From: an uncultured bacterium
GTDB lineage: Bacteria; Oederibacteriota; PGYV01; Palsa-1178
Direction: 5' to 3'
Assembly: GCA_937889595.1 (NCBI GenBank)
Contig: CALAOR010000068.1
Span: 1 to 38,516, forward strand
DNA: 38,516 nucleotides
The notes beneath the pieces were generated by a model, which was not told where the DNA came from, searched no databases, and was given only the letters and a program-made list of their open reading frames with translations. Positions 4,129-33,795 of the stretch are shown here, piece by piece; position 1 is the first letter of the stretch, and every line of letters starts with the position of its first letter. The position numbers were made by a program, and so were the translations under genes.

Positions 4129-6648
4129 TTAAACACCTCTCTCGGCAAGGTTAATTACCGTTTTCCAATAGTCTTGTGTTATTTTATATTCATTTTCGCG
4201 TATTGGTATATCTTTGTTCGTATCTGATGTGGCTATCCAGTATGCAACCCTATCAGCACGGACCTGTACAAGGTTCTTTTCGTTACCACACATATAAAAA
4301 GCTTCCGAATATAAGCCCTTTACCTGTTTGAGCGTGGTAATTATGCCCATTTCATTTTCATTAAGCCTGTAAAGTTCTTTTATTAACGGAAGATCCTCCG
4401 AACTTTGATGAAAAAGCGTTTTTGTTGGAGCTGATGTAAGGACCTTCTTTGCCTCCTCGTTACATAAAAAATCACTTAGCTGTTGTGTCGCTATGATAGA
4501 AGCAAGGCCCAAATGACGGCTTCTTTTCCCAAGGTCGAGCAGAAAGTTCTGCCCGCCTGAAAATCTGGCCAGAAACCAAGCCTCATCAATTACCAACAGT
4601 TGTCTTTTTTGTAATTTTTTATTGATTTTAAAACGCTGCATTGAAAAATTTGATATTATGTAAATGCCCAGGGAAAGGATATCATCCCTGTTGGCCGGTA
4701 ACCCGGATATATCAAATACGACAAAGGAACTTTTCAGTTCAATGTTGCTCGGCCGATCGAGCATACCCGCAAAAGAACCTTCTCCAATGAAAGGACTGAA
4801 TTTTTCTTTGATATCAAGCAATTGCTCTTTGTGTTTCTGTGATTCTATTGTTTCAATAAATTCATCAATAACCACCAAAATATCCCTTAAAAGAGGTATT
4901 GTCTTCCTGTCAATAATTTTATTACCCGTTTTATCTATTATGAATTTAAGTTTATTTTTGTACATTTTACGGACCATTTTTTCCGCAAGCCCGGATTCCA
5001 CCTTACTTAACCTTGACACTCCTTCTTCGGAAAGAATAATGTCAAATAACCCGGTTATATAAGCAATTTTATTTGGGGTAGGATCGCCTTTAACCGTGAT
5101 GTCATTTTCGTCACCGTGTTCGTTAATAAGCGCCGGGTCATAATCAATACAGTCGAAGGGATTGTAACTGCAGGTACCGTCAAGTGATAGTGTTATGTAT
5201 TGTCCGTCATTACACTTACAGTTATATTCATATGATTTGGATTTGTCAATTATGATCACTTCCGGCCGCCATGGAGCAATTCTAGTCAATATAAGATTGA
5301 TAAAAAATGATTTACCCGAGCCTGGCCGTCCTACAATTATATGATTGTTATTCTCAACAGCTGGATTATAGGGTCCATAAAACACAGATTTACCTGTTAA
5401 ACTTGTTCCTATATAAACACCGGCATCTACTTTTTTGACTTCAAAATTAAAAGCCGGCATTAGGTATGAAAGATTGCCGTCTGTACGATCCCCCGGACTC
5501 CCTGTAATTGTAAGGTAATAATGTCCGGCCGTGTTGTGACATAAAGGAAGCGTAGAAAGAAATAATTTCTTTTGTTCAAAAATTCCAGGATAATGTGTAC
5601 AGCCCTCAATAATACTTTCAAACTCCGGTATTAATTCCTCAAAAGCATCCCGATTTTCATGTCTAAAACTCAAGTAGCAGGCAAATTCAATAAATTTAAT
5701 TTCACGTCTTGCCTGAGCCGATAATAATATCTCAGTATTATCAGCAATTGCCCTATTGTCAATATCGGTTTGTTTTTCACTTGTTCCCAGGGCAAGTTTT
5801 AATTTATTAGTCAATTGTTCTTTAATTTCGTGCTGTGATATACCGCGAACAAATAAAGACAACGTGGAATAATTATTTATAAGAAACAATTCCTGCAAAA
5901 AATTGGGTTGTGAAGGTATGTCAGCAATATAAAAAGTTTTTACGTGTTGTTCTCCAATCATGCCCATGGCATTTTCTTCACTGAAAGGGGTCCTTATCAA
6001 TGAACTTTTTAACGTATTAAACGATTGTCTTAAGTGGTCTACCGGTATTTTTCCTGTTTGTTCTGGATTAAATGCCTTATCGAGCATGTCCTTGATCTGT
6101 TGTTCGGTCATTTCAACTACTTCAACACCCGATATCTGCCCCATAAAGCCCACAAAGCCCCTGCTTCTGTTTGAAATATTGCGCCTTAACGTTGCCGTAT
6201 CTTTTTTAATTTCTGTCGATTTTATTGTTTTAGTAAACAGGTTGGTTTGTTTTCTGTATGTAAAAAGGATATAAATATTTTGTTCGCAAATTCTCTCACT
6301 GCGAACAAAGTCAGTAATGAACTGATCAAGTATATTGGGATAATAATTTTGAAATTCAGGAACCGGGTGGTTTTTAATAATTCTTTCGTTATATTTAAAA
6401 ATATCCGGTTCAGGATCATACTTTTCGGTTTGAATTACAATTTGTACTTCTTCACCGGCTTTTAAAGTATTTAACGCATTTCTAAAACTCAAAGTAGCCT
6501 GGTCAAGTTGGGCTTCGGCGGCTGTAAGGGTATTAATACCACCGTTTAGCTTAAAGCATATTATTGGAGTATCACTTTCGTCAATAATATAGCCATCTCC
6601 AAAATCTTTAAAATTAATTAAATCCTGAAAAGCTAAATTTTCATTCAT
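4129..6648 (-). CDS. virB4: VirB4/TraC-family conjugation ATPase
   Basis: 839 aa. An N-terminal VirB4/CagE-type region is followed by a RecA-like ATPase domain with Walker A GRPGSGKSF (residues 440-448) and Walker B LLVIDEAWFL (Asp688, Glu689). A DISGL strand and the ATQQLSDFL segment typical of the family are also present. The protein powers assembly and function of the type IV secretion channel at the inner membrane. Its start overlaps the end of the VirB3-like gene (ATGA), and its stop abuts the VirB8-like start, so the three are translated as one block. The length is normal for the family and the key residues are intact. Confidence 0.95.
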   Translation of the reverse strand: MNENLAFQDLINFKDFGDGYIIDESDTPIICFKLNGGINTLTAAEAQLDQATLSFRNALNTLKAGEEVQIVIQTEKYDPEPDIFKYNERIIKNHPVPEFQNYYPNILDQFITDFVRSERICEQNIYILFTYRKQTNLFTKTIKSTEIKKDTATLRRNISNRSRGFVGFMGQISGVEVVEMTEQQIKDMLDKAFNPEQTGKIPVDHLRQSFNTLKSSLIRTPFSEENAMGMIGEQHVKTFYIADIPSQPNFLQELFLINNYSTLSLFVRGISQHEIKEQLTNKLKLALGTSEKQTDIDNRAIADNTEILLSAQARREIKFIEFACYLSFRHENRDAFEELIPEFESIIEGCTHYPGIFEQKKLFLSTLPLCHNTAGHYYLTITGSPGDRTDGNLSYLMPAFNFEVKKVDAGVYIGTSLTGKSVFYGPYNPAVENNNHIIVGRPGSGKSFFINLILTRIAPWRPEVIIIDKSKSYEYNCKCNDGQYITLSLDGTCSYNPFDCIDYDPALINEHGDENDITVKGDPTPNKIAYITGLFDIILSEEGVSRLSKVESGLAEKMVRKMYKNKLKFIIDKTGNKIIDRKTIPLLRDILVVIDEFIETIESQKHKEQLLDIKEKFSPFIGEGSFAGMLDRPSNIELKSSFVVFDISGLPANRDDILSLGIYIISNFSMQRFKINKKLQKRQLLVIDEAWFLARFSGGQNFLLDLGKRSRHLGLASIIATQQLSDFLCNEEAKKVLTSAPTKTLFHQSSEDLPLIKELYRLNENEMGIITTLKQVKGLYSEAFYMCGNEKNLVQVRADRVAYWIATSDTNKDIPIRENEYKITQDYWKTVINLAERGV

Positions 6649-14090: not shown

Positions 14091-14321
14091 GCCCTTTCAC
14101 ATGCGCGCGAGTTACAACAGATACATACATTGCCAACGTCATGACTTACGTAGTCACAATCTACACCTGCGCGCGAGTTGCAACTCTCGTTATAATTTAA
14201 ACGTTATATATTTAGGTCTTTGTCACAATCCGTACCGACGCGCGAGTTGCAACTACTTTCAACGGTGTGGAATGTACCATAAGCTATCTGTCACAATCCG
14301 TACCGACGCGCGAGTTGCAAC
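14087..14321 (-). CRISPR. short CRISPR-like array: four repeats, three spacers
   Basis: The 32-nt repeat occupies 14290-14321 and 14222-14253 (identical), 14153-14184 (degenerate centre) and 14087-14118 (mostly its last 14 bases). On the minus strand it begins GTTGCAACTCGCGCG and ends GGATTGTGAC. The spacers are 36 nt (14254-14289), 37 nt (14185-14221) and 34 nt (14119-14152). Decay of the leftmost repeats implies the leader is on the right, beside the nuclease gene, giving minus-strand transcription. The 36-nt spacer matches 34801-34836 in this element at 31 of 36 bases. No cas1 or cas2 is visible. Iterons are the main alternative, but the regular unique spacers and the match argue against that. 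Confidence 0.77.
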
Positions 14322-14322
14322 T

Positions 14323-14350
14323 TCGGCCAAAAAATCACCTCTATTATAAG
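14323..14350 (-). terminator. terminator-like hairpin with embedded TATAAT between nuclease and array
   Basis: On the minus strand ACCTCT-TATAAT-AGAGGT is followed by GATTTTTT, a good intrinsic terminator for the nuclease gene. The loop is an exact TATAAT (14343-14348), which could instead be the -10 box of the array promoter, with a start about 15 bases before the first repeat. I see no good -35 box. Confidence 0.6.
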
Positions 14351-18240: not shown

Positions 18241-18470
18241 ATTAATGCCCCCTCTTCGTATAATTTGAATAGTTTTTTTATGTTATGTTTAATAACAAAC
18301 AATCTTAAGTCTTTGAAGGTGTTGACTGTTTCAAGTTCTTTATCCATGGCCGCCAATATTTCGCTTTCTCCATTGTCTGCGGCTTCATAATGAATGCTTG
18401 TAAATAAATCAGAAATTCTTTTCTTTACGGCTTGTAACTTGTGCTTAATTGTCTTTCTTTTAACTGACAT
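18222..18470 (-). CDS. small helical protein behind structured leader copy 1
   Basis: 82 aa from the ATG at 18470, set by AGGAGG seven bases upstream; the longer frame to 18530 runs into the structured leader. The product (MSVKRKTIKHKLQAVKKRIS) is basic at the start and helical throughout. No family is recognised. It is the first gene after the ~358-bp structured repeat, in the same position as the 37-aa gene after the second copy. Confidence 0.6.
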   Translation of the reverse strand: MSVKRKTIKHKLQAVKKRISDLFTSIHYEAADNGESEILAAMDKELETVNTFKDLRLFVIKHNIKKLFKLYEEGALIWLKKQ

Positions 18471-18472
18471 TC

Positions 18473-18829
18473 TTAAACCTCCTGTTATTGTTTTAAAACC
18501 CGCCAATGAACTCGTCCAAATCGCGTACATTCTGTACCGATTTGGGCGAGTTCATACTTAGCGGCAGGCGGAAAAGGTTATATACTCGTGGGCAAGGTAT
18601 AAAAATTATTTGCGGGTTTAATGGCGCGGAGCTCGCTGGCGAGGCCGTGACAGGCAAATTATTTTTATACCTTGCCTGTCAACTCATCATTAACCGAGCG
18701 GAAAAGTATGATCAGGCTTTTAAGCGACAGCAATAACCCGGCCGGAGCCGGGATTATTGCCGAGCGCCGCAACCGTCGCTTTTCCGGGATAATGATGGCA
18801 TCAGAACTTTTTCCGCCTGCCGTGCCTTT
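18473..18829 (-). repeat. ~358-bp structured leader repeat, copy 1
   Basis: Nearly identical to 21361-21719, and like it ends with AACAAT-ACAGGAGGTTTAA just before a small gene. It is rich in nested inverted repeats: a 48-nt hairpin at 18507-18554; a 22-nt arm at 18591-18612 pairing with 18655-18676; arms GGCAGGCGGAAAA and TTTTTCCGCCTGCC near the two ends; and AATAACCCGGC/GCCGGGATTATT inside. Two base pairs of the 48-nt hairpin differ between copies in a compensated way, which points to selection on the fold. It could be a regulatory 5' leader RNA or a single-stranded DNA site. Confidence 0.8.
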
Positions 18830-20462: not shown

Positions 20463-21092
20463 TTATAGTTCCTGATTTTCTAACAATGAGCGATATGTAC
20501 CGTTGTATCTTTCCATTAATCCCTCTTCATAAAATGAAAAGTACCCTTTGCCCTCCTGACCTATAATAATATGGTCAAGCAAGGTGATATCCACTTCTTT
20601 AGTAGCAAAAAGAAGTTTTCTTGTTACTTTTCTGTCGTTCTCGCTCGGGGCAGGGTCACCGCTCGGGTGATTGTGAATTATTACAATTGATAAAGCGCCT
20701 TTATCAATACACGCCTTTATTATTTCCCTCACATATAAAATGCTCTGCGTGATTGTTCCCTCACATAAAAGCATATTGTCAAAAATCTTGTTTTTTGCGT
20801 TTAAAAATATTGCGTGTACAGTTTCCCTTTTGAGGTCATAAGCAACATTTTTAAAATGTGCGATTATGTCCGCCTGTGATGAAGCATTGAATTTTTTGCC
20901 TATAAACTTATTTTTCGTGTACGCTTCGGAAAAGCTTTTCAAGGTGTTTATAAACCCTTTTTCCTGTTCTGACAGGGTCGGTAATAATAAGACCTGTTTC
21001 AAATTTCGGTAATCGTATTTTGTGATTTTCTCCGCAAGTCCTTTCTTTAAAAACGGTTTAAATTCCTCAAAGTGAAAGTAAAAGTTTTTCAT
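20463..21092 (-). CDS. radC: RadC-family JAB/MPN domain protein
   Basis: 209 aa. The metal-binding JAMM-type motif is intact: HNHPSGDPAPSENDRKVTRK in the centre, followed by LLDHIIIG. RadC-like proteins are common on plasmids, phages and islands, and chromosomal RadC was once linked to DNA repair; the true activity is unsettled, with a protease or nuclease-like role suggested. The N-terminal ~80 residues lack the usual helix-hairpin-helix. AGGAG lies before the ATG, which follows the 53-aa gene by a few bases. Confidence 0.88.
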   Translation of the reverse strand: MKNFYFHFEEFKPFLKKGLAEKITKYDYRNLKQVLLLPTLSEQEKGFINTLKSFSEAYTKNKFIGKKFNASSQADIIAHFKNVAYDLKRETVHAIFLNAKNKIFDNMLLCEGTITQSILYVREIIKACIDKGALSIVIIHNHPSGDPAPSENDRKVTRKLLFATKEVDITLLDHIIIGQEGKGYFSFYEEGLMERYNGTYRSLLENQEL

Positions 21093-21360: not shown

Positions 21361-21719
21361 TTAAACCTCCTGTAATTGTTTTAAAACCCGCCATTGAACT
21401 CGTCCAACACGCGTACATTCTGTACCGTGTTGGGCGAGTTCAATTCTGAAACGGCAGGCGGAAAAGGTTATATACTCGTGGGCAAGGTATAAAAATTATT
21501 TGTGGGTTTAATGGCGCGGAGCTCGCTGGCGAGGCCGTGACAGGCAAATTATTTTTATACCTTGCCTGTCAACTCATCATTAACCGAGCGGAAAAGTATG
21601 ATCAGGCTTTTAAGCGACAGCAATAACCCGGCCGGAGCCGGGATTATTGCCGAGCGCCGCAACCGTCGCTTTTCCGGGATAATGATGGCATCAAAACTTT
21701 TTCCGCCTGCCGTGCCTTT
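21361..21719 (-). repeat. ~358-bp structured leader repeat, copy 2
   Basis: Second copy of 18473-18829. The hairpin at 21395-21442 has arm bases AACACG/CGTGTT where copy 1 has AAATCG/CGATTT, so two pairs are swapped and pairing is kept. Most other differences are single and lie outside stems or make G-T pairs. It stands immediately before the first gene of the radC operon. The segment between the two copies, about 2.5 kb, is flanked by direct repeats and could be amplified or lost by recombination. Confidence 0.8.
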
Positions 21720-21837
21720 GACCTACTCAAACATCGGTCTATAAAAAACAGCGAAGCGAATAAGGATTCATAAGGAAATTATTTCCTTATGTCGGGGGAT
21801 CCAGGGGGTTGAAAACCCCCTGGGTTTATGAATTTTT

Positions 21838-21958
21838 CCCCGCGGCCACGGGGCCTTTGAAACTTTCCCGGTTGTCCGCAGGACAGCCGATGTCTTTTGC
21901 AGACGACCGCAGGGCGGCTGATGTAGTACGCGATCGGCGGTAGGCGATCGATGTCTTC
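21838..21958. repeat. multi-hairpin module, copy 1
   Basis: Order of parts: a GC hairpin (CCCCG/CGGGG), then CCTTTGAAACTTT, a hairpin GGTTGTCC-GCA-GGACAGCC, GATGTCTTTTGCAGA, a hairpin around CCGC/GCGG, GATGT, and a hairpin CGATCG/CGATCG followed by GATGTCTT. The linkers recur at 22753-22853 and 23331-23453 while the stems change. The upstream bases 21720-21837 hold two more strong stems (AAGGAAAT/ATTTCCTT and CCAGGGGGTT/AACCCCCTGG). Confidence 0.7.
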
Positions 21959-21960
21959 AA

Positions 21961-22700
21961 CAGCCGGGGACTACAGGTTCTTCCCCGGCTGTAAAACTCC
22001 GTGCCTTATACGGCGCGTCTACTACGCCGCATGCTCTTATGAGGCGGCCATGAGAGCCGCCGAATACTTCAACAGCCGGGGACTATAGGTACTTCCCCGG
22101 CTGTAAAACTCCGTGCCTTATGCGGCGTGTCTACTTACGCCGCATGCTCTTATGAGGCGGCCATGAGAGCCGCCGAATACTTCAACAGCCGGGGACTACA
22201 GGTTCTTCCCCGGCTGTAAACTCCGTGCCTTATGCGGCGTGGTCCACTTACGCCGCATGCTCTTATGAGGCGGCCATGAAAGCCGCCGAATACTTCAACA
22301 GCCGGGGACTACAGGTTCTTCCCCGGCTGTAAACTCCGTGCCTTATGCGGCGTGGTCCACTTACGCCGCATGCTCTTATGAGGCGGCCATGAAAGCCGCC
22401 GAATACTTCAACAGCCGGGGACTACAGGTTCTTCCCCGGCTGTAAACTCCGTGCCTTATGCGGCGTGGTCCACTTACGCCGCATGCTCTTATGAGGCGGC
22501 CATGAAAGCCGCCGAATACTTCAACAGCCGGGGACTACAGGTTCTTCCCCGGCTGTAAAACTCCGTGCCTTATGCGGCGTGGTCCACATACGCCGCATGC
22601 TCTTATGAGACGGCCACATGAGCCGCCGAATACTTCAACAGCCGGGGACTACAGGTTCTTCCCCGGCTGTAAAACTCCGTGCTTTATGCGGCGCATGCCG
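21961..22700. repeat. seven-fold ~113-bp tandem repeat made of three hairpins
   Basis: Units begin at 21961, 22073, 22186, 22299, 22412, 22525 and 22639, with spacings of 112-114. Each unit has three stems: CAGCCGGGGA/TCCCCGGCTG, ATGCGGCGT/ACGCCGCAT and GGCGGC/GCCGCC. Units 3-6 are almost identical and the outer ones diverge; the last unit is incomplete. No reading frame runs through the unit and 113 is not a multiple of three, so it is not a protein repeat. A diverged relative with a different stem (CAGTGGGA/TCCCACTG) follows at about 22709-22734. Confidence 0.85.
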
Positions 22701-22752
22701 CATGTTTCAACAGTGGGAATATAAGGGCTCCCACTGTGCTTTAATAATTTTG

Positions 22753-22853
22753 CCTCGCCGTAGGCGAGGGCATTTGAAACTTTTTCAGATACCCGATAGG
22801 GTAACTGATGTTTTTTGCAGACGACCGCAGGGCGGCTGATGTATGGTCTTGAG
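22753..22853. repeat. multi-hairpin module, copy 2
   Basis: Stem CCTCGCC-GTA-GGCGAGG, then CATTTGAAACTTT, a hairpin CAGATACCC-GATA-GGGTAACTG, GATGTTTTTTGCAGA, a hairpin around CCGC/GCGG, and GATGT. The linkers match copies 1 and 3 and the stems are different sequences. It lies at the right end of the tandem repeat, mirroring the position of copy 1 at the left end. Confidence 0.7.
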
Positions 22854-22876: not shown

Positions 22877-22907
22877 TTGAAAATCTTATACGGTATGTTA
22901 TTATAAT
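22877..22907 (+). promoter_or_regulatory. possible plus-strand promoter
   Basis: TTGAAA (22877-22882) and an exact TATAAT (22902-22907), with a long 19-base spacer. It points to a short segment that ends at a strong terminator. Confidence 0.45.
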
Positions 22908-22913
22908 TGTGTT

Positions 22914-22970
22914 AGGTGCCAGCTCCAAGCGAAACAGAAAAGCCCCGGTTAATGCCGGGGCTTTTTCTTT
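22914..22970 (+). ncRNA. candidate ~55-nt small RNA with intrinsic terminator
   Basis: From the -10 box at 22902 the transcript would read TAGGTGCCAGCTCCAAGCG and end at AAGCCCCGG-TTAATG-CCGGGGCTT followed by TTTTTCTTTTT. The terminator is strong and the promoter moderate. The first ~25 bases resemble the plus strand of the tRNA-like sequence at 23160-23194 (shared GTTAGGTGCCA and AGCGAAAC), so the RNA would be partly antisense to a minus-strand tRNA-like transcript. Confidence 0.5.
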
Positions 22971-23094
22971 TTAAGGACCTGCCTCTTTAGCGGACACTTC
23001 AAAAATGAAAGCACTAATCATTTTTGCAAGTGTACGCTGGGTGGGTGGGATTATCATATCGTTTTTACCCCTGCCTATAATACTCGGTTCACCT

Positions 23095-23228
23095 TGACAG
23101 CCCCTTAAAATGAAAAGACGAAGAGCCGAGAGAGCCGCGTGGGAATCGAACCCACTATCGTTAGGTGCCAACCCAACTATCGCTCCAGCGAAACGGCTCT
23201 TCGTGAAAACTTTATGAAGGGGCTGTCA
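23095..23228 (-). tRNA. tRNA-like sequence inside an inverted repeat
   Basis: On the minus strand, acceptor arms AGAGCCG (23200-23194) and CGGCTCT (23137-23131) pair, and the T arm GTGGG-TTCGATT-CCCAC (23155-23139) is perfect. The D region (CGCTGGAGCG) is too short for a normal D arm, and the anticodon-like stem GTTGGG/CCTAAC has a six-base loop (TTGGCA), so it is not a standard tRNA and no CCA follows. It is flanked by TGACAGCCCCTT and AAGGGGCTGTCA. A second copy of CGGCTCT follows the first. It may be a decayed tRNA, an integration scar or a tRNA mimic. Confidence 0.5.
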
Positions 23229-23330
23229 CCGATAGGGCGGAACACCGTGGAGCAGGTAAACCTTAATTTATCAAGCAGGGGGAAAAACAATACCTTAGAG
23301 GGCATTAGCTGTGTCGTAAAAAGTCTTTGC

Positions 23331-23453
23331 CCCGCAGCTGCGGGGGCCCTTGAACCTTTCCCGGATGTCCGCAGGACAGGCGGTGTCTTTTGCAGACAAC
23401 CGTAGGATGGTTGATGTTTTGCGCGACCGCCTGCGGCGGTCGATGGTCTTGAT
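23331..23453. repeat. multi-hairpin module, copy 3
   Basis: Palindrome CCCCGCAGCTGCGGGG, then CCCTTGAACCTTT, a hairpin around GTCC-GCA-GGAC, GTGTCTTTTGCAGA, a hairpin CAACC/GGTTG, GATGT, then GACCGCC-TGC-GGCGGTC followed by GATGGTCTTGA. It has the same order as copies 1 and 2 with altered stems. It stands alone, about 480 bp beyond copy 2. Confidence 0.68.
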
Positions 23454-23640
23454 CTATTGCCCTGACCGGTCCTAATCTTTGTGCGGCTCCACATGCAGAG
23501 CCGCATGCTCTTGCGTTAGCGGCCGCAGCCCCCAAAGGGGTTGAGACCCGCAAGCCTTAAGCGGGGCTCAAGGCGCAGCCCTGCAGAGCGGCACGGCAGG
23601 TTCATGCCGGGCAACGCCCAAACACAAGAAATTAAAAATT
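23454..23640. other. non-coding, diverged hairpin unit
   Basis: The stem TGCGGCTC/GAGCCGCA is followed by TGCTCTTGCGTTAGCGGCCG. This parallels the second stem of the tandem unit, where ATGCGGCGT/ACGCCGCAT is followed by GCTCTTATGAGGCGGCC. The pairing is kept with different bases. Reading frames here (for example on the minus strand from 23506) are incidental to the GC-rich stems. Confidence 0.5.
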
Positions 23641-23874: not shown

Positions 23875-23945
23875 GAATGCCTTGTTTCTGTACCGTTCTG
23901 TCCTGCTTTGTTCTGTTCTGTCCCGTCTCGTTCTTTGTTCTTTAA
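23875..23945. repeat. short degenerate CTGTTCTG-type repeats
   Basis: The plus strand runs through several variants of TGTTCTGTCC and CTGTCCTGC with no purines beyond G at fixed spacing, about every 10-11 bases. It could be a binding-site cluster or simple sequence. It adjoins the long inverted repeat. Confidence 0.35.
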
Positions 23946-24108
23946 CTTACCTATTTTACATACCCCCCTCATTCACATTCTGAGTAGTAAACCACCAAAA
24001 TCTATCAACATCTAAAGTTACACCTAGATGCTGATAGATTTTGGTGGTTTACTCGAGGCTCAGAATGTAGCGATTATGAGGGGGGTATGTAAGCTTAAAA
24101 TAGGTAAG
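23946..24108. repeat. 163-bp near-perfect long inverted repeat
   Basis: The left arm starts CTTACCTATTTTA and the right arm ends TAAAATAGGTAAG. Between them pair CATACCCCCCTCAT/ATGAGGGGGGTATG, ACATTCTGAG/CTCAGAATGT and AGTAAACCACCAAAATCTAT with its complement, leaving a loop of about ten bases near 24015-24024. Small internal loops interrupt the stem. No gene is inside. It could be a MITE-like insertion, a single-strand replication origin or a transfer-related site. Confidence 0.85.
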
Positions 24109-24120
24109 TTACTACCTATT

Positions 24121-28761: not shown

Positions 28762-29109
28762 CAGTAAACTTAAATACGTTATTGGTTTTATGCTCCTGGG
28801 CCGGATAATTTTCACACTTACCTTAAAAACACGTTCTTAACGCCCTTTTAACGGTTTTAACGGTTATTAGCTACATATTCCCTTAATTATAGGTAAAAAT
28901 CAAATCCAGGGCCCATACAGGCTTAAATTATTGGGTTTGGTGGTCTTGTCGGATGGTCATTTTATGTATGTGAAAATTCTCGTTTAAAATCGTTTTCTAA
29001 CGTAAGGTCTAACGTTCTTATTTATACCCTTTAGATCTAAATCGTTACTACGTTAAGCGCAGTTCTAAAAATAAAAAAGCTTATTTTTAAGATAAAAAAT
29101 AGAATTTAT
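28762..29109. other. AT-rich region between par promoter and iterons
   Basis: No gene. It has many TAACG and AACGTT motifs (for example TAACGGTTTTAACGGTTA near 28847-28865, and CTAACGTAAGGTCTAACGTT near 28997-29016) and an AT-rich stretch with AAAAATAA/TTATTTTT at 29067-29090. These are plausible centromere and DNA-melting elements of the replication origin. Confidence 0.45.
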
Positions 29110-29260
29110 GCATGTAACAGTACGGTAAACGCACGTAAGACTACGGTATATGCACGTAAGATTACGGTATCGGTGCACGCAAAACTACGGTATAACGCAT
29201 GTAAGCCTACGGTATAAATGCACGTAGAACTACGGTATATGCACGTAGGGGTACGGTATT
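29110..29260. repeat. oriV: seven iterons, probable origin of replication
   Basis: Direct repeats of the form GCACGTAAGACTACGGTAT start at 29110, 29131, 29152, 29175, 29197, 29220 and 29241, so every 21-23 bases, two helical turns. The ends GCAYG and TACGGTA are fixed and the middle varies. Such iterons bind Rep initiators of theta-replicating plasmids. They lie just beyond the 3' end of the rep gene rather than before it, next to an AT-rich stretch. Confidence 0.88.
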
Positions 29261-32086: not shown

Positions 32087-32271
32087 TTTATCCCTCCACC
32101 GCGGCCGTAGGCCCCAGCTGGTCGATTAAGTCCCTTAAAAATCTGTTTATAGACCTGAAGTTCATTATTTGTCATTTTTTCAAACAAGGGGTCATTAAAA
32201 TTTTCGCCCGTTGCTATGGCTTCCTGAGCAAGTTTTTGTAAAACGGCTATTGTTTTTTCTTGTTTTGTCAT
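32065..32271 (-). CDS. small protein with MTKQEK start
   Basis: 68 aa from the ATG at 32271, which follows AAGGATAGGAAACAT at the end of leader repeat R1. The start MTKQEKTIAVLQKLAQEAIA resembles that of the TPR gene at 32413 (MTKQEKAIATAF), which has the same leader. It overlaps the NrdD-like gene by 22 bases. It is helical and its function is unknown. Confidence 0.6.
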   Translation of the reverse strand: MTKQEKTIAVLQKLAQEAIATGENFNDPLFEKMTNNELQVYKQIFKGLNRPAGAYGRGGGIKWTSKRS

Positions 32272-32282
32272 ATGTTTCCTAT

Positions 32283-32384
32283 CCTTTCTGGCCACAAGTG
32301 GCCACTTCTTCGATGTTTTCCCTGTTCCGGGTAATTTACAGGCCTTAAATCGGCTCCTGGTGATTCCCCGGATAGCGTCCTATG
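32283..32384 (-). repeat. ~100-bp gene leader repeat R1
   Basis: Differs from R2 (33010-33111) at only three positions. It contains the palindrome TGGCCACAAGTGGCCA just before the ribosome-binding site and a possible stem CCGGG/CCCGG enclosing CAGG/CCTG. It precedes the gene starting at 32271. Confidence 0.8.
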
Positions 32385-32412: not shown

Positions 32413-33000
32413 TTATGATTTATGAAATTTAATAGCTTGCTCCATATCGTCGGTAGCACCTTTAGGGTCGTGCATCATGATTTTTGCATTGGCTCGGCCG
32501 CTATAGGCTTCTTCATATTTAGGATTTAGTTCTATTGCTTTGTTATAGTCAATGAGCGCGCCTTTATAATCATTAAGTTCTTCTTTTGCAAATCCTCGGT
32601 CATTATATGCTTCAAAACTATTTGGATTTATTTTAATAAAATCGTCATAGTCTTTAATTGCTTCAATGTAATTTTTGTCTAAGATTTTAGAAAATAGTGT
32701 TCGTAAAGTTGGTTTTTCTGATGGGTGTGAAAATAAGCTAAATGCAAGCAAAGTAAGAAGACAAGATACAACTGAAACCCAATTAAAGAAGTATCTAGGT
32801 TTGGATTTGCACATATTCATAAAATCTGTTTTAGATTTTTCCTTAATCTCAGACATAAACTCTTTAGATCCAAGTTCGTTAGTTATTAATGACCGCCCGA
32901 TTAATTTTTCAACATAATGAGTATATGTATCATAATCCTCACCGGCACTAAACATTACTCCTGTAAAAGCGGTTGCTATTGCTTTTTCTTGTTTTGTCAT
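32413..33000 (-). CDS. membrane-anchored TPR protein
   Basis: 195 aa: a soluble start (MTKQEKAIATAFTGVMFSAG), one membrane helix (FFNWVSVVSCLLTLLAFSLF, about residues 71-90), then at least two TPR motifs (YIEAIKDYDDFIKINPNSFE, then GALIDYNKAIELNPKYEEAY). TPR domains bind proteins, so it may be an assembly or scaffold factor at the membrane. It lies between two leader repeats, next to a VirB8-like gene. Confidence 0.8.
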   Translation of the reverse strand: MTKQEKAIATAFTGVMFSAGEDYDTYTHYVEKLIGRSLITNELGSKEFMSEIKEKSKTDFMNMCKSKPRYFFNWVSVVSCLLTLLAFSLFSHPSEKPTLRTLFSKILDKNYIEAIKDYDDFIKINPNSFEAYNDRGFAKEELNDYKGALIDYNKAIELNPKYEEAYSGRANAKIMMHDPKGATDDMEQAIKFHKS

Positions 33001-33009
33001 ACGTTACTT

Positions 33010-33111
33010 CCTTTCTGGCCACAAGTGGCCACTTCTGCGATGTTTTCCCTGTTCCGGGTAATTTACAGGTCTTAAATCGGCTCCTGGTGATTCCCCGGAT
33101 AGTGTCCTATG
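33010..33111 (-). repeat. ~100-bp gene leader repeat R2
   Basis: Second copy of the leader, immediately before the TPR gene start at 33000. It is nearly identical to R1, while the genes that follow differ after their first few codons. Confidence 0.8.
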
Positions 33112-33117
33112 ATCATT

Positions 33118-33693
33118 TCAAATTCTGTCTGATATTTCCTCAAATCCTTCTTCTTTGACTATTTTTCTATTATCTTCAATTAGTTTTCCTTCAATTGATT
33201 TTATTTCATACATTGTTTCCATATTATCAATTTTCAAATCACCATATTTATCTTTGACAAAGGATAATGTTGTTGTTATATCCGTTGGGTCTGTAATTTT
33301 GTTGTTTTTAGTAGAAGCATAAGTAATAATGCCAAGTACTTTAATTGTCATTGTATTATTAATCATTTTTTTATAAAACCTTTTGTATTCATAATTTGAT
33401 TTAAACCTGCTTGCTGTGATGTTTGAGTATGTTTTATTGTCAAAAACCTCTTTATAATGTTTTAAAAACTCCGGGGTCATTAATAACATGAGTTTTTGGT
33501 GGTTGTCTACTGCCGATGTTGGCGTGTTATTATAAAACAAATTACAAAATTCAATTGCCAATCGTTTTCCTTGCAAAGTATTTTTTGTATCAGTCAGCAT
33601 AAGTTTTGGTAAGAAAATGGAACTTATTAAGATACCTAAAATTATCCCGCTGTAAATAAAAGATTTCGGCAAATTTTCGTTTGCGTTTTTCAT
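33118..33693 (-). CDS. second VirB8-like membrane protein
   Basis: 191 aa: a short cytoplasmic start, one membrane helix (FIYSGIILGILISSIFL), and a periplasmic domain. MTPEFLKHYKEVFDNKTY followed by TIKVLGIITYASTK parallels MTPELLSEYKENFYDNAF followed by AIKIIGLAKYTSTI in the operon copy at 3502. Both have a similar helix-domain distance, so they are paralogues of the VirB8/TrbF type. It sits away from the other channel genes between leader repeats R2 and R3, and could be an alternative subunit or a transfer inhibitor. Confidence 0.65.
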   Translation of the reverse strand: MKNANENLPKSFIYSGIILGILISSIFLPKLMLTDTKNTLQGKRLAIEFCNLFYNNTPTSAVDNHQKLMLLMTPEFLKHYKEVFDNKTYSNITASRFKSNYEYKRFYKKMINNTMTIKVLGIITYASTKNNKITDPTDITTTLSFVKDKYGDLKIDNMETMYEIKSIEGKLIEDNRKIVKEEGFEEISDRI

Positions 33694-33704
33694 TTGTTCT
33701 CTCT

Positions 33705-33795
33705 CCTGGCCACAAGTGGCTACTTCTTTGATGTTTTCCCTGTTCTGGACAACTTACAGGACTTAAACCGGCTCCCGGTGATTCTCCGGACACGT
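33705..33795 (-). repeat. ~100-bp gene leader repeat R3, diverged
   Basis: Third copy, before the VirB8-like gene at 33693. It keeps TGGCCACAAGTGGC, GATGTTTTCCCTGTTC and the CGGCTCC-GGTGATTC block but has about 20 differences from R1 and R2, several of which keep the possible stems. Confidence 0.7.

Follow-up and report, generated by a model that had tools for sequence, protein, structure and literature searches.

A hairpin array beside the transfer genes of a conjugative plasmid

In the non-coding DNA adjoining the transfer genes of a plasmid from an uncultured soil bacterium we confirmed the presence of a real tandem array of hairpins. Our preferred explanation, which we hold tentatively, is that the array is an amplified hairpin module of the transfer/establishment region and that it would act in single-stranded form. 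The window analysed here, 38,516 nucleotides long, is the whole of contig C68, which belongs to an assembly of 3.4 Mb in 93 contigs that is 98.96% complete. It carries genes for VirB4, a VirD4/TraG coupling protein, a Replic_Relax protein, ParA and ParB, together with an RPA-family replication initiator, a topoisomerase, RadC and an IS605-type TnpB, and its ends do not overlap. The contig is a conjugative plasmid, or part of one, of a member of the candidate division FCPU426. The presence of both conjugation genes and ParAB agrees with the plasmid origin proposed by the first-pass annotation; the array is also close to the transfer genes.

The array lies within a non-coding, hairpin-rich stretch of 3.1 kb, flanked by radC, whose plus-strand end is at 21092, and by the Replic_Relax gene, which extends from 24166. 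Two genes, TraG and Replic_Relax, separate the array from parB, at a distance of about 4 kb. Other repeats were observed elsewhere on the plasmid: three related ones of 85-140 bp, 83-94% identical, in a variable gene region (32246-32384, 32975-33111 and 33686-33790), and, past the end of the TnpB gene, short tandem repeats of degenerate sequence (14101-14330). Moreover, short-iteron arrays lie upstream of parA both in the window (29108-29259, period about 21) and in the sister plasmid described below (locus L043, 11251-11596), and are likely replication or partition sites.

Extent and units of the array

Tandem Repeats Finder reported a single tandem array at 21955-22693, with a period of 113, 6.5 copies and 96% matches. 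With the unit borders set by cutting at TTCAACAG, the array, read on the plus strand, covered 21956-22705 and consisted of six full units of 112-114 bp and a truncated seventh, a copy number taken from one metagenome assembly, in which the three identical 113-bp units may be over- or under-counted. The ‘seven-fold’ array of about 113 bp reported at first holds as far as the tandem units of 112-114 bp are concerned, but the seventh is incomplete and the complete ones are six. Unit 1 (112 bp, 21956-22067) contains the hairpins H1, H2, with an imperfect stem, and H3; it is followed by units 2 (113 bp, 22068-22180), 3 (113 bp, 22181-22293), 4 (113 bp, 22294-22406) and 5 (113 bp, 22407-22519), by unit 6 (114 bp, 22520-22633), in which H3 is altered, and by the partial unit 7 (22634-22705), which has kept H1 and a shortened H2, without H3. 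In unit 3, H1 is found at 22185-22217, H2 at 22232-22258 and H3 at about 22268-22288. The array ends with a diverged member of the H1 family, named H1' (feature 22706-22738, hairpin 22708-22738, plus strand; CAACAGTGGGA..TCCCACTGTG), which starts with the same TTCAACAG.

The three stems per unit originally described were found again, with 11 bp and a loop of 11 in H1, 9 bp and a loop of 9 in H2, and 6-7 bp in H3. Units 3, 4 and 5 are identical letter for letter, and the differences are confined to units 1, 2, 6 and 7; this bears out the remark that the central units are alike and the outer ones drift, and supports amplification.

Hairpin density, folding and coding potential

Thirteen strong hairpins were seen in 21956-22738, whereas 100 dinucleotide shuffles gave a mean of 0.07 and a maximum of 1. 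The non-coding regions of three plasmids (the window, L043 and L084) contained 13 + 9, 9 and 6 strong hairpins, respectively, against 0.07-0.15 in the shuffles, and the coding DNA of the window is hairpin-poor (2 strong hairpins per 10 kb). When compared with shuffles, the array unit folded as RNA with z = -5.9 on the plus strand and -4.2 on the minus strand, and as DNA with z = -6.6 and -5.6, respectively. The G+C content was 57.5% in the array and 38% in the plasmid, the stems being far GC-richer. Stops interrupt every one of the six frames across the array, the longest open run per frame being 52-72 codons, and the nearest genes are radC and Replic_Relax, in agreement with the description of a unit without an open frame in a region without genes.

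No DnaA boxes or ParB parS sites were found in or near the array, and the suggestion of a replication block found no support. The search of Rfam gave no match in the window at the gathering score; the best hit of the array was a chance-level GlsR26 (19.1 bits vs 100), and the sub-gathering matches over the small RNA gene S, a long inverted repeat (both described below) and the array were discarded as chance or generic hairpins.

A hairpin module shared with a distant sister plasmid

The array unit did not occur elsewhere in its own genome and, in a phylum comparison of 45 genomes, it had no match at E 0.001 in the 44 others. No match was found in PLSDB or in phage records, the H1 pattern was absent from IMG/VR, and scans of IMG/VR for the TraG protein gave no match. 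Several candidates were rejected: 213 PLSDB plasmids, nearly all enterobacterial, matched only 43 bp of the region used as query, a generic terminator rich in G+C; the IMG/VR contig L051, found by a tRNA-like pattern, holds a phage gene at the matching place and is a chance match; and the tandem repeat seen in G033 (L078 1152-1538) overlaps a tRNA-Ser gene and is unrelated to the array.

A looser search with the unit returned short matches at chance level, one of which, G003:C108:5059-5087, fell in a contig with the gene order of the window, namely RadC, non-coding region, Replic_Relax, TraG, ParB and ParA. This sister contig of genome G003 (PLPI01000009.1, candidate division FCPU426 bacterium, from a bog) is the nearest named relative. 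Its locus L043 contains, at 5059-5118, a single H2 hairpin with a diverged H1 hairpin (H1') directly after it, and no array. The first-pass annotation had suggested looking for the unit in related plasmids and comparing copy numbers; the sister plasmid has the H2 + H1' part, in one copy. The DNA of the window at 22697-22738 is 86% identical to L043 5079-5118, and H2 is likewise 86% identical, while the proteins of the two plasmids are only 39% (TraG) and 57% (RadC) identical. The H1' pattern occurred once in its own genome and once in G003, and in none of the 19 other genomes searched. The position of the module is swapped between the two plasmids: the array and H1' of the window lie on the opposite side of S and C relative to H2 + H1' in L043. 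The place of the L043 H2, after the tRNA-like element and TCTTGATCTAT, is held in the window by an H2-like hairpin (23481-23506, plus strand; GTGCGGCT..AGCCGCAT).

Since H2 + H1' is present once in a distant sister plasmid, the hairpin module is older than the array and was probably amplified recently in the plasmid of the window. Furthermore, the 86% identity, kept despite the divergence of TraG and RadC, suggests that the module is probably under selection and conserved for a function, neutral non-coding DNA being unlikely to align at this distance; horizontal exchange could be an alternative account of the high identity of H2 + H1'.

The same observations bear on a neutral or selfish local amplification, in which the palindromes would favour slippage and unequal crossing-over, the unit number being without function. 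The identity of units 3-5 with drift at the edges would fit it, as would a sister plasmid that manages without an array and a region that seems to duplicate easily, with module B in three copies and the leader E1 in two (see below). However, the persistence of H2 + H1' between very distant plasmids and the fact that no similar array was found elsewhere in the genome or in the phylum argue against it, and we judge this explanation unlikely. Within the preferred reading of a functional module, as the module is in two plasmids and the array in one, the amplification itself may be neutral.

Changes in the stems

In comparison with H1, H1' has lost two base pairs and has one pair altered on both arms (CAGCCGGGGA/TCCCCGGCTG vs CAGTGGGA/TCCCACTG); the loops of the two hairpins have TA.AGG-like letters in common. 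The H2-like hairpin differs from H2 by the loss of one base pair, on both arms, and by one single-sided wobble. The single-sided stem changes include three in units 1 and 6, which are wobbles on the minus strand, and one in the H2-like hairpin, which is a wobble on the plus strand; G-U tolerance gives no clear strand signal, the changes among the array units being too few. Since both arms of the stems change together and pairing is kept, the mostly paired changes would favour a hairpin folded from one strand rather than a protein site in the duplex; paired changes can also arise, without selection, from template switching between the arms.

This evidence weighs on the idea, first raised with partition in mind, that the array is a duplex protein-binding platform, either a partition centromere like sopC or a site titrating a regulator. 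Such a platform would suit an array whose tandem units contain inverted repeats and whose plasmid has ParA and ParB; arms that change together are, however, unfavourable for a dimer reading the sequence, no parS-like site is present, parA is immediately preceded by separate short iterons in either plasmid, and the sister plasmid has no array. Duplex binding, a partition site included, appears highly improbable.

As regards the nature of the single strand, we lean slightly to single-stranded DNA, an RNA-only reading carrying less weight. The paired changes in H1/H1' and H2, the hairpin-rich region, the inverted repeat kept in its position and the covariation in module B would all count for the preferred explanation.

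Structured elements around the array

The array is surrounded by other structured elements. Module B, a series of short hairpins (h0-ha-hb-hc), is present in three copies on the plus strand: at 21834-21957, abutting the array; at 22740-22843, immediately to the right of H1'; and at 23326-23450. Among these copies 9 of 37 pairs are changed on both sides with pairing kept. The small RNA gene S (22877-22972, plus strand) has a promoter, TTGAAA-16-TATTAT, and an intrinsic terminator (22937-22966), both kept in L043 (4608-4705). By eye, the core of S (TTAGGTGCCAGCTCCAAGCGAAAC) shows complementarity to element C in two stretches of the latter's tRNA-like core, and S and C are possibly an antisense pair.

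Element C (23040-23310, minus strand) has this tRNA-like core at 23095-23228, inside nested palindromes, and is 83% identical to L043 4738-5011, being better conserved than the adjacent genes. In the two sequences 10 of the 77 predicted pairs are doubly changed and kept, and none is broken. The core scored 30.6 bits against the tRNA-Sec model, under the gathering score of 47, and ARAGORN did not recognise the element. A covariance model of the core found both plasmids at 167 bits and, elsewhere in the phylum, gave weak matches to true tRNA genes. In genome G030 these were a tRNA-Ala in contig C73 (G030:C73; L091 1529-1600), with the anticodon AGC, which is unusual in bacteria, and a tRNA-Val on the G030:C49 plasmid (L084 1835-1907), near TraG; TGACA palindromes frame both genes, which are possible relatives of element C. 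Hits of the model in G027:C26 and in L080 proved to be a tRNA gene and sequence at the attachment end of an ICE, and were set aside as no clear relatives of C.

On the other side of the array, the structured leader E1 (21393-21720, minus strand) lies upstream of radC, and a second copy, 95% identical and 2.9 kb apart, is found at 18455-18829, upstream of a small gene. Relatives of E1 occur in G003 (L043 4040-4350), upstream of radC, and in G001 (L044 1729-2185), upstream of an ArdC-like gene recognised by a weak Pfam match below the cut-off. In E1, 28 pairs have two or more Watson-Crick types, and no clear -35/-10 pair was found by eye.

Finally, a long inverted repeat (23943-24111, no strand assigned), a putative oriT, lies beside the Replic_Relax gene, 1.2-2.0 kb from the array. 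Inverted repeats of about 95-170 bp, unrelated in sequence, are found directly beside the gene following TraG in eight FCPU426 elements: besides the window, L043 (6189-6346), L084 (2245-2399), L082 (10664-10793), L080 (9191-9332), L079 (11579-11703), L077 (6351-6446) and L078 (4142-4247). Judged by its position, this repeat is a candidate for the oriT of this element family.

These neighbours bring into consideration a transcribed hairpin RNA, i.e., the array as part of a non-coding RNA whose repeated hairpins would sponge a protein or a partner RNA; an example would be a plus-strand transcript running from TTGACC-16-TATAAA (about 21718-21745) through module B and the array to the terminator at 22937-22966. 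The neighbours are indeed RNA-like, with the conserved promoter and terminator of S and the compensatory changes in the tRNA-like core of C, and the GC-rich stems of the array and the letters common to the loops of H1 and H1' point in the same direction. Against this, the proposed start was read by eye and lies outside the criteria of the scanner; no promoter/terminator pair framing the module is conserved across the two plasmids, as S and C have the module on their opposite side in L043; the two strands have about equal consensus folding energies (-47.2 vs -46.7), which favour neither; and no Rfam family is reached at the gathering score. We consider this RNA possible, but on the unlikely side.

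Comparison with known repeats

In BIMEs and REP arrays, GC-rich palindromes joined by short conserved linkers form tandem mosaics in non-coding DNA, and recombination alters their copy number. The array is likewise a tandem mosaic of different GC-rich palindromes and such linkers, outside coding DNA, but it is restricted to one plasmid region whereas REP elements are scattered over the chromosome, and its units are longer. No GTAG was read in the sequence at the foot of any of the three hairpins, H1 to H3. Chromosomal REP elements were rejected because the hairpins occur on C68 only, the unit and the module B/E1 stretch matching only this contig in the genome. Eight Y1_Tnp domain matches were found in the genome, none near the array. 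The array is akin to palindromic mosaic arrays (BIMEs), without the dispersal of REP and without the GTAG foot.

In Frpo1/Frpo2, ssi and the IncN CUP repeats, long hairpins recur in the non-coding DNA that precedes establishment genes of conjugative plasmids. The F plasmid has two Frpo copies, 92% identical and about 5 kb apart, and ssi of ColIb-P9 is a single-strand element of the leading region (PMC9849209, PMC11541004), the second of these papers being a leading-region survey of anti-defence genes. In the window the nearest likeness is E1, with its two near-identical copies upstream of radC and of the small gene and with the G001 copy before an ArdC-like gene; the stems of the array differ in having no -35/-10 boxes, and no gene directly follows the array.

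The sopC site of F, a plasmid with ParA/ParB, consists of 43-bp tandem units with short palindromes, one inverted repeat per unit. The array shares the tandem repeats, the inverted repeat in each unit and the ParA/ParB plasmid; it differs in that its stems covary, its loops are of 7-11 nt and the TraG and Replic_Relax genes separate it from parAB. Integron attC arrays are tandem imperfect palindromes able to function as folded single strands. The array also has tandem imperfect palindromes able to fold as single strands, but no cassettes lie between its units and no R/L boxes were recognised; the best match in the genome to the integron integrase model (TIGR02249) reached 89.6 bits vs a cut-off of 265, and the same model matches general tyrosine recombinases in all controls. 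A CRISPR-type array was rejected, as the full 113-bp unit repeats and there are no unique spacers. A search of open-access papers for such arrays on conjugative plasmids returned nothing relevant.

Proposed mechanism and significance

According to the explanation that we prefer, a conserved hairpin module in the transfer/establishment region of an FCPU426 plasmid would have undergone recent tandem amplification. The hairpins would act in the single-stranded state of this region, whether in transferred DNA or in a transcript, and each H1/H2 hairpin would be a recognition or docking structure for a putative factor (a host or plasmid protein, a priming or coating activity), so that more copies of the module would offer more sites. 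We infer both that the module is functional and that its copy number matters. In a bolder version, which we regard as quite improbable, the whole 3.1-kb region would serve a new plasmid family as a centre of control by RNA and single strands, comprising C, S, E1, the oriT-like repeat and the hairpin array as a tunable sponge or docking track, the copy number of which would set the strength of transfer or establishment.

The transfer of conjugative elements in uncultured phyla is little understood. In three plasmids of one phylum, the non-coding DNA near the coupling-protein gene is far denser in strong hairpins than coding DNA, and some structures there hold their pairing while the letters change. 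The tRNA-like element C and the complementary small RNA S may outrank the array as a lead in this region. As for the array, if it is indeed dosage-dependent, its copy number would be a simple adjustable part of the plasmid, with a measurable effect on transfer.
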